Positions 7,465-10,622 of a stretch of DNA of 10,623 bases are shown in pieces. Numbering within the stretch: the stretch's first letter is position 1; every line of letters begins with the position of its first letter. This DNA comes from an uncultured Campylobacter sp. Lineage in GTDB: Bacteria > Campylobacterota > Campylobacteria > Campylobacterales > Campylobacteraceae. The stretch spans positions 1-10,623 of the forward strand of contig CASFHJ010000172.1 of assembly GCA_949294425.1 (NCBI GenBank), in the 5' to 3' direction. Position numbers and translations under genes: made by a program. The notes beneath the pieces are model-generated. The model was not told the origin of the DNA. It made no database searches and was given only the letters and a program-made list of their open reading frames with translations.

Positions 7465-7535
7465 AAACTTTTGGCTTAATTTCTTGTATGTTTATACTTT
7501 AAAGATAGAAAATTTACTCGCACACAAGCGTGTGC
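7455..7535 (-). promoter_or_regulatory. Candidate pause and antiterminator structures of the met leader RNA
   Basis: Three pairings compete in the leader RNA. Hairpin 1 is GCACAC (7535-7530) with GTGTGC (7525-7520), loop GCTT, starting right after the Met codons of the leader ORF. Alternative 2 pairs CTTGTGTG (7528-7521) with CATACAAG (7490-7483), eight pairs including one G-T, and excludes hairpin 1. Alternative 3 pairs TTAAGC (7479-7474) with GCTTAG (7460-7455), which covers the loop and inner stem of the terminator and so excludes it. The layout resembles ribosome-controlled attenuation; the exact coupling between 2 and 3 cannot be settled by eye. Confidence 0.5.
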
Positions 7536-7591
7536 ATATACATCATAGAAGAGTTAAGGATAAGAGAATTAGTATAGTGAAAAAATAACAT
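7514..7591 (-). CDS. Methionine-rich leader peptide of the metY-metA operon (proposed)
   Basis: This is a 25-codon ORF: ATG at 7591-7589, stop TAA at 7516-7514. It has an excellent ribosome binding site, GGGAAAGGAG (7608-7599), seven bases before the ATG, in an otherwise non-coding leader. The peptide starts MLFFHY and carries Met at residues 16, 17 and 19 (SSMMYMH), three Met in four codons, besides the initiator; it ends LVCE. There is no resemblance to a functional protein. Its position suggests it is a sensor: 26 bases after the predicted transcription start, just before hairpin 1, and 50 bases before the leader terminator. Ribosomes stalled at the Met codons when charged Met-tRNA is scarce would alter folding downstream and allow read-through into metY-metA. 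The function is inferred. The ORF is too short for ordinary gene finders. Confidence 0.7.
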   Translation of the reverse strand: MLFFHYTNSLILNSSMMYMHTLVCE

Positions 7592-7616: not shown

Positions 7617-7652
7617 TTTTTGTATCTTATCTTAAAAAAAATAAAAAGTCAA
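7617..7652 (-). promoter_or_regulatory. Sigma-70 promoter of the met leader and metY-metA
   Basis: On the minus strand TTGACT (7652-7647, one mismatch to TTGACA) is followed after exactly 17 bases by TAAGAT (7629-7624). The spacer is almost all T, typical of Campylobacter. The start would be near 7617, leaving a short stretch before the leader-peptide ribosome binding site and a total leader of about 200 bases before metY. A recognisable -35 box is uncommon in Campylobacter promoters. It lies back to back with the ybeY promoter. Confidence 0.6.
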
Positions 7653-10193: not shown

Positions 10194-10622
10194 TTAAATT
10201 TTATCCTTTGTCTTTTTGATTATATTTTCTAAATTTAAAGTCAATTTATCAATTTTTGCAACTATGTTTTTTAACATTAGCTCGAGATTTTTTTCATTAA
10301 CCTTAATCAAATTTTTTCTTTTAAGCTCTCTATTTAATGCGTTTAAATTTCTACCCAATATATTTATACTTGTCTTAGTTGATGTGAGCTCTAAAAGTTC
10401 TTTAGTGTTTTGAAATTTATCTTTATAAATTTCATTTAGTATTATGTATCTTAATTCTTGCGTTAAATATTTATGCCCATTTAACGTTGATTTTTCTTTT
10501 AATATTTTCCACTCGTTTGGAGTAAAACAAACCCTAACTTCCTTTGTTCTTTCCTCTTTTCTTTCATTTTTATAGCAAAGTAAATTTTCCTTTATTTCCT
10601 CATCCTCTTGGCTTATTTTTAA
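10194..10622 (-). CDS. MobC-like plasmid mobilisation accessory protein (partial, 5' end missing)
   Basis: The frame is open to the right edge of the window, with no start codon before the conserved region. The visible 142 residues end at TAA 10196-10194. After an acidic, charged stretch comes EVRVCFTPNEWKILKEKS, then YLTQELRYIILNEIY. This is the pattern of a ribbon-helix-helix relaxosome protein (compare RVRFTPEEW...LKE...SEYIR in MobC-type proteins). Further on, INILGRNLNALNRELKRKN matches the family's IGRNLNQLAR-type motif, and a C-terminal helix KNIVAKIDKLTLNLENIIKK follows. MobC-type proteins bind oriT and help the relaxase open it. No relaxase gene follows downstream, where it is often found; it may lie beyond the right edge or be lost. 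The family assignment is by motif recognition only. Confidence 0.55.
   Translation of the reverse strand, partial: LKISQEDEEIKENLLCYKNERKEERTKEVRVCFTPNEWKILKEKSTLNGHKYLTQELRYIILNEIYKDKFQNTKELLELTSTKTSINILGRNLNALNRELKRKNLIKVNEKNLELMLKNIVAKIDKLTLNLENIIKKTKDKI

Follow-up and report, generated by a model that had tools for sequence, protein, structure and literature searches.

In the trp, his, and leu attenuators of Escherichia coli, codons for the end product lie in a short ORF that overlaps the first hairpin and precedes the biosynthetic genes. In other bacteria, methionine genes are controlled by SAM riboswitches and T-boxes; to our knowledge methionine is not among the amino acids with textbook leader-peptide control, perhaps since a shortage of Met should also affect initiation. 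The closest described system is MetL of Campylobacter jejuni, a 20-aa ORF with three Met codons that was detected by differential RNA-seq on a short RNA before metBA (Porcelli et al., 2013; PMC3847290). The accessible portion of that report proposes that stalling for want of charged tRNA leads to antitermination, places the end of the short RNA soon past the stop codon, and lists MetL for C. jejuni, C. coli, and C. doylei only (PMC3847290). A 2025 Ribo-seq study, in its available text, records a strong retapamulin initiation peak at C. jejuni MetL and proposes a second, 6-aa Met-rich leader found by the same method, CJsORF19 (MMYQMR), before Cj0772c (PMC11955535). No functional test of MetL was found in the literature searched, as far as its text was accessible, and the literature retrieved for Campylobacter, Rho-dependent termination, and methionine concerned, judging by title, other bacteria.

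The window, meaning the whole stretch of DNA analyzed here, is 10,623 nt of contig CASFHJ010000172.1 from an uncultured Campylobacter sp. whose genome is 77 percent complete in 281 contigs. The leader that it contains and MetL of C. jejuni are one and the same system: a ribosome binding site (RBS) and its short ORF lie directly 5' of metY(metB)-metA and downstream of a promoter-like site. The features of the locus, in order of transcription, are as follows.

7652-7624, minus strand: sigma-70-like promoter, TTGACT at 7652-7647 and TAAGAT at 7629-7624, from a consensus scan
7605-7599, minus strand: RBS of the leader ORF, AAAGGAG, read from the sequence
7591-7514, minus strand: MetL leader ORF, ATG at 7591 and TAA at 7516-7514, 25 codons plus stop, peptide MLFFHYTNSLILNSSMMYMHTLVCE; C. 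jejuni counterpart in print
7537-7535, minus strand: last Met codon (residue 19), whose G is the first stem base of hairpin 1; this codon is present in all leaders found
7535-7520, minus strand: hairpin 1, GCACAC-GCTT-GTGTGC, 6-bp stem within the leader ORF, from consensus scan and folding
7519-7480, minus strand: spacer after hairpin 1, of balanced composition in the window (C 4, G 4)
7464-7443, minus strand: terminator-like hairpin AAATGC-tta-GCATTT (7464-7450) plus U-run, -2.5 kcal/mol, with 10/200 shuffles as good
7416-6139, minus strand: metY, O-acetylhomoserine sulfhydrylase, TIGR01326 above cut-off
6128-5241, minus strand: metA, homoserine O-acyltransferase, PF04204 above cut-off, NCBIfam MetA models matching below theirs

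Near its end (10194-10622) the window has an ORF that is open at the contig end and has, by eye, the look of a mobilisation-type protein.

The initial annotation of this DNA had presented the leader as unannotated. A 2013 study had predicted MetL, as a tRNA-sensing leader, 5' of metBA in C. jejuni (PMC3847290); because the attenuator proposal is already in print for C. jejuni MetL, that annotation was right in kind but not new. The additions made here are the reach of the leader, the fixed geometry of codon and hairpin, and extra copies. Its description of a 25-codon ORF with a strong RBS, carrying MMYM at residues 16-19, agrees with the sequence; Met occupies residues 1, 16, 17, and 19, and the peptide ends in SSMMYMHTLVCE. 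The sigma-70 promoter that it called good does have a site at the expected place, with 9/12 consensus matches, a 17-nt spacer, and a transcription start expected near 7617, but the consensus scan of 801 nt reported 5 such sites where 2.9 would be expected (SD=1.9), which leaves the candidate promoter plausible and unproven. By eye, TTGAC-type and TATAAT-like hexamers also lie upstream of four related leaders (L003, L004, L011, L012). No Rfam family reaches its gathering score on either strand of the window, so no described SAM riboswitch or T-box is present, as had been stated, nor any other described RNA at that threshold; a search of nine related loci returned tRNAs only.

The Met codons had been placed in front of an RNA hairpin, with the ORF preceding it. 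Instead, hairpin 1 lies inside the ORF and begins at the G of the last Met codon, so that the first hairpin overlaps the regulatory codons, as a trp-type attenuator requires. The consensus scan reports this hairpin itself as terminator-like (7536-7519, tail AGTAAATTTT). In the genus group, 20 of 49 genomes have a metY ortholog (E <= 6e-181), the genome of the window among them, and all 20 genes are preceded by an SD-like motif, itself a requirement of the scan, and a short ORF of 15 to 28 codons in which the G of a Met codon opens a 6-bp stem. At these 20 oriented loci the loop measures 3 to 6 nt and the stop codon falls within or just past the hairpin, and in 17 leaders (leaving aside the repeats L010 and L015, and L019, where a long insertion intervenes) metY begins 70 to 112 nt beyond the hairpin end. 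A strict form of this architecture, consisting of an SD-like motif, a short ORF, an AUG that supplies with its G the first base of a stem (6 bp or more, 4 or more of them G-C pairs), and a stop close behind, was scanned for on both strands of 593 kb of fetched loci and occurs, besides the metY leaders, at three chance loci (L058, L074, L099); the 232 kb of fetched metQ and metE loci contained no copy. Only 3 chance loci in 593 kb against 20/20 metY genes place the architecture beyond chance.

Hairpin 1 is paired in 99 percent of cells among 17 distinct sequences, compared with 89.6 percent in shuffles, and two-sided changes are seen at 3 of its 6 pairs in 15 cells versus 5.5 in shuffles, these statistics including L004, which has a longer loop and is partly misaligned. 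Every slid version of the alignment scores lower. The number of pairs with a two-sided change (3 vs 2.4) and the number of further pair types (8 vs 8.7) do not exceed shuffles. Met accounts for 39 of the 404 internal residues of 18 leader peptides against 43 of 2778 in 11 window proteins; each leader has one to three internal Met residues at otherwise varying positions, and where there is a single one (3/18; L005, L009, L017) it is that at the hairpin base. What all leaders have in common is not a cluster of three Met codons in four but a single one of these codons, with its G as the first base of the 6-bp stem. Of the conservation that the initial annotation proposed to look for, the short ORF (20/20) and the drift of its N-terminal residues are borne out, whereas the Met cluster varies around its one fixed member and a terminator-like hairpin follows in 13/19 leaders.

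A covariance model of the hairpin recovers all 20 metY leaders because it was built from those leaders or their repeats. Applied to 150 family genomes it adds L222, in a genome of another genus (G075; E 0.0012), once more 5' of metY, with the hairpin ending about 60 nt before the gene and no terminator-like hairpin between. Outside the genus 11 genomes gave a model match, and of the two inspected L222 looks real and L223 looks like chance. Presence in 20/20 metY-bearing genomes of the genus group and in L222 gives MetL a much wider reach than the 2013 list. Among 80 named loci fetched by metY similarity, a MetL-type leader is found in L032, which has the same sequence as L003, and in L036 only; L049 is a chance match at looser settings, and a few of the other 77 loci have a short upstream stretch, that of L084 being practically nil. 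L036 is a 3.2-kb contig labelled Brachyspira catarrhinii with a MetL-type leader and a metY 72 percent identical to that of the window, and is either assembly contamination or a gene transfer.

We consider the MetL leader of the metY-metA operon to be, probably, a ribosome-sensing attenuator, most likely one that works by stalling at a shortage of Met-tRNA. Judged by comparison of sequences the sensing step is well supported, while the output step is unproven. Given the known size of the ribosome, one that has the last Met codon in its A site would extend some 12 nt past the A of this codon, which in the window takes it to the end of the loop. The 5' arm and the loop would then be covered and the 3' arm free, which is the arrangement of a leader-peptide attenuator. 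At a shortage of Met-tRNA, the ribosome would wait there, its front, roughly 12 nt ahead, would keep hairpin 1 from forming, and transcription would continue into metY. With Met-tRNA plentiful, the ribosome would reach the stop codon and leave, hairpin 1 would form, and transcription would tend to end over the following ~100 nt. In leaders that have the weak U-run hairpin it would end there, and in the others perhaps with help from Rho. The loss of hairpin 1 may be passed on by a weak antiterminator pairing, by a lost polymerase pause, or by loss of the end point itself.

The output step is less clear than the sensing step. The leader terminator claimed in the initial annotation is best matched by the second hairpin with its U-run (7464-7450), which is weak and which the consensus scan missed because it has just two G-C pairs. 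Hairpins of this kind with a U-run occur in 13/19 leaders, and in 7 leaders their rank among shuffles is 5 percent or better, counts in which L012/L013 and L014/L016 are close pairs; they start 44-58 nt past hairpin 1 in 12 of the 13 and 28 nt past it in L006, and none was found in L004, L005, L009, L011, L019, or L036. A trp-type antiterminator was not demonstrable by folding or by duplex tests against shuffles. Pairing of the hairpin 1 3' arm with downstream RNA is not above shuffles (mean z +0.12, 19 leaders), and with the terminator 5' arm alone as the target the effect is marginal (13 leaders, mean shuffle rank 0.33 and 0.32; in the window, -6.1 kcal/mol and ranks 0.08 and 0.07). Refolding without the 5' arm altered hairpin 1 alone in 12/19 leaders, by eye; in the other 7 the freed arm gains a few pairs at no common place, that of L008 pairing with the metY start region, which would be of the wrong sign. 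The three leaders with a single internal Met would be weak sensors, which counts against an attenuator, as does the expectation that a Met shortage should also slow initiation on the leader itself. A Met-tRNA-sensing attenuator, as the initial annotation called it and as was already proposed for C. jejuni MetL, is still the best reading, with a weak terminator, no demonstrable antiterminator, and a Met cluster that is not conserved.

An unlikely alternative is Rho-dependent attenuation. Once translation of the leader is over and the ribosome gone, Rho would load onto a G-poor spacer and end transcription 5' of metY, with hairpin 1 acting as a pause site or as 3'-end protection of the short RNA. 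The first 40 nt of the spacer contain 103 C and 27 G over 17 distinct leaders, compared with 368 C and 327 G in 69 same-genus control 40-mers (Mann-Whitney p 6e-6, uncorrected for relatedness), a composition that would suit Rho, as would the six leaders that have no terminator-like hairpin. The window's own spacer is balanced, however, and this reading does not account for the sign of the response, since a ribosome stalled at the Met codon would leave the spacer exposed. Distinctly improbable is translational attenuation, with the spacer after hairpin 1 hiding the metY RBS. Same-genus metQ leaders, described below, resemble such a type, and the metY SD pairs with the first 40 nt of the spacer in the top 10 percent of shuffles in 5/18 leaders (L003, L012, L013, L020, L036), three of them in the top 4 percent; but over all 18 leaders, pairing of the SD does not exceed that in shuffles (mean z -0.45 in total and +0.51 with the first 40 nt), and in the window its pairing with these 40 nt has a value of 0.03 (39/100 shuffles as high).

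We give very little credence to the ORF being a working small protein with an incidental Met codon: an initiation peak is reported in the accessible text for C. jejuni (PMC11955535), but, close pairs aside, the N-terminal part varies freely from species to species, and conservation is confined to the residues that the hairpin encodes. Least credible is a DNA operator for a repressor under a chance ORF. Many of the sequences do show a near-perfect dyad at the DNA level, GCGTGC-N3-GCACGC, but the dyad lies downstream of the expected transcription start, stays in phase with the Met codon in 20/20, and is retained through G-U pairs, which keep an RNA stem and break DNA symmetry, in 5/19 aligned sequences (L007, L009, L012, L013, L036; also L010, a repeat of L007).

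The element is not confined to metY. Of 13 second-locus or weaker model matches that were read, four look real (L209-L212, model E 7e-4 to 0.04 per genome) and nine look like chance (L213-L221). Two of the four, L209 in G003 and L211 in G041, have a peptide end of STMSCCMHTFVCKNS and lie just upstream of a 401-aa ORF identified as yedE/fdhT (NF033796 above cut-off in L209), which is followed by a 75-aa ORF that appears TusA-like by eye; two Cys codons beside Met in this leader suggest a link to sulfur or selenium. The other two, L210 and L212, are both in G044 and share the peptide end SMMMHTLVC, the next long ORF being an NtaA/DmoA-family monooxygenase and an MFS transporter, respectively. 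Counted from a start that has an SD-like motif, their leader ORFs are longer, at 55 and 47 codons, and a further 300-400 nt or so lie between them and the genes, which makes the link to those genes less sure. Behind the L212 leader there is a GCCC/GGGC hairpin with TTTTTT.

Met-rich leaders of another kind precede metQ and metE. A six-codon ORF (MMxxM plus one residue) lies upstream of metQ in 13/30 fetched loci (L116:1303-1442; L113, L114, L117, L120, L121, L123, L124, L126, L127, L130, L134, L138), reading MMPQMR, MMSQMR, MMYQMR, MMHQMR, MMSSMR, MMSQMS, or MMSQMF. Three mutually exclusive pairings follow, the last of which covers the metQ SD. Twelve leaders were folded and read by eye: 7 gave the off state, in L124 and L127 the alternative helix in the middle forms, and in L120, L121, and L126 the helix that hides the SD is preceded by a different fold. 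The middle helix has a two-sided change in L121 and in L124. On these predicted folds the metQ leaders look like Met-sensing translational attenuators in anatomy, and this alternative-pairing anatomy is not worked out in the available text of the Ribo-seq study (PMC11955535). In the window's genome no Met leader was seen at the one metQ-like gene fetched, which stands closely behind another gene, and the pattern ATGATGNNNCARATG has a single match there, in an apparent secA.

For metE or its operon, a Met-rich leader ORF was found in 10/23 fetched loci, seven of the MKLMCQM type and three others. The leaders rich in Met and Cys (MKLMCQMCNI and kin) are those of L144, L145, L149, L150, L151, L154, and L155, and further ones are at L156, L162, and L164. 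A similar structured RNA with possible alternative helices stands behind the leader in the first seven, and nine short slices holding metE leaders gave nothing in Rfam but a tRNA, even at E 1.

Taken as a tentative model, and one that may well not hold, Campylobacter would have a multi-gene leader regulon for sulfur amino acids. It would be built on a one-hairpin switch with a single Met codon at the base of a short stem, in which a waiting ribosome keeps the stem open and no antiterminator is needed, with copies at metY-metA, yedE/fdhT, the NtaA-type monooxygenase, and the transporter, and with a second, alternative-pairing type at metQ and metE. In the bacteria concerned, no Rfam riboswitch or T-box was found at methionine genes in the loci searched, and the fixed geometry of Met codon and hairpin across metY-bearing genomes makes the idea of a single-Met-codon sensor directly testable.

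Like the trp, his, and leu attenuators of E. coli, the window leader has its regulatory codons in a short ORF that overlaps the first hairpin 5' of biosynthetic genes; unlike them, it has no demonstrable antiterminator, the terminator is weak or missing, and some of its relatives have a single regulatory codon. CJsORF19, which in the accessible text precedes a methionine-transport gene (PMC11955535), is likewise a Met-rich leader; it has 6 codons, and behind its relatives in the present set come three alternative pairings, one of them including the metQ SD. To C. jejuni MetL (metBA, cj1727c-1726c) it corresponds in place, in operon, and in being a short ORF with an RBS and several Met codons. 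The window leader is longer and has the MMYM cluster, and the accessible portion of the 2013 report makes no mention of a hairpin opening at the last Met codon (PMC3847290); the 20-aa, three-Met description of C. jejuni MetL fits the MSYISFNLMLSSFCMRAWHA-type leaders found here.
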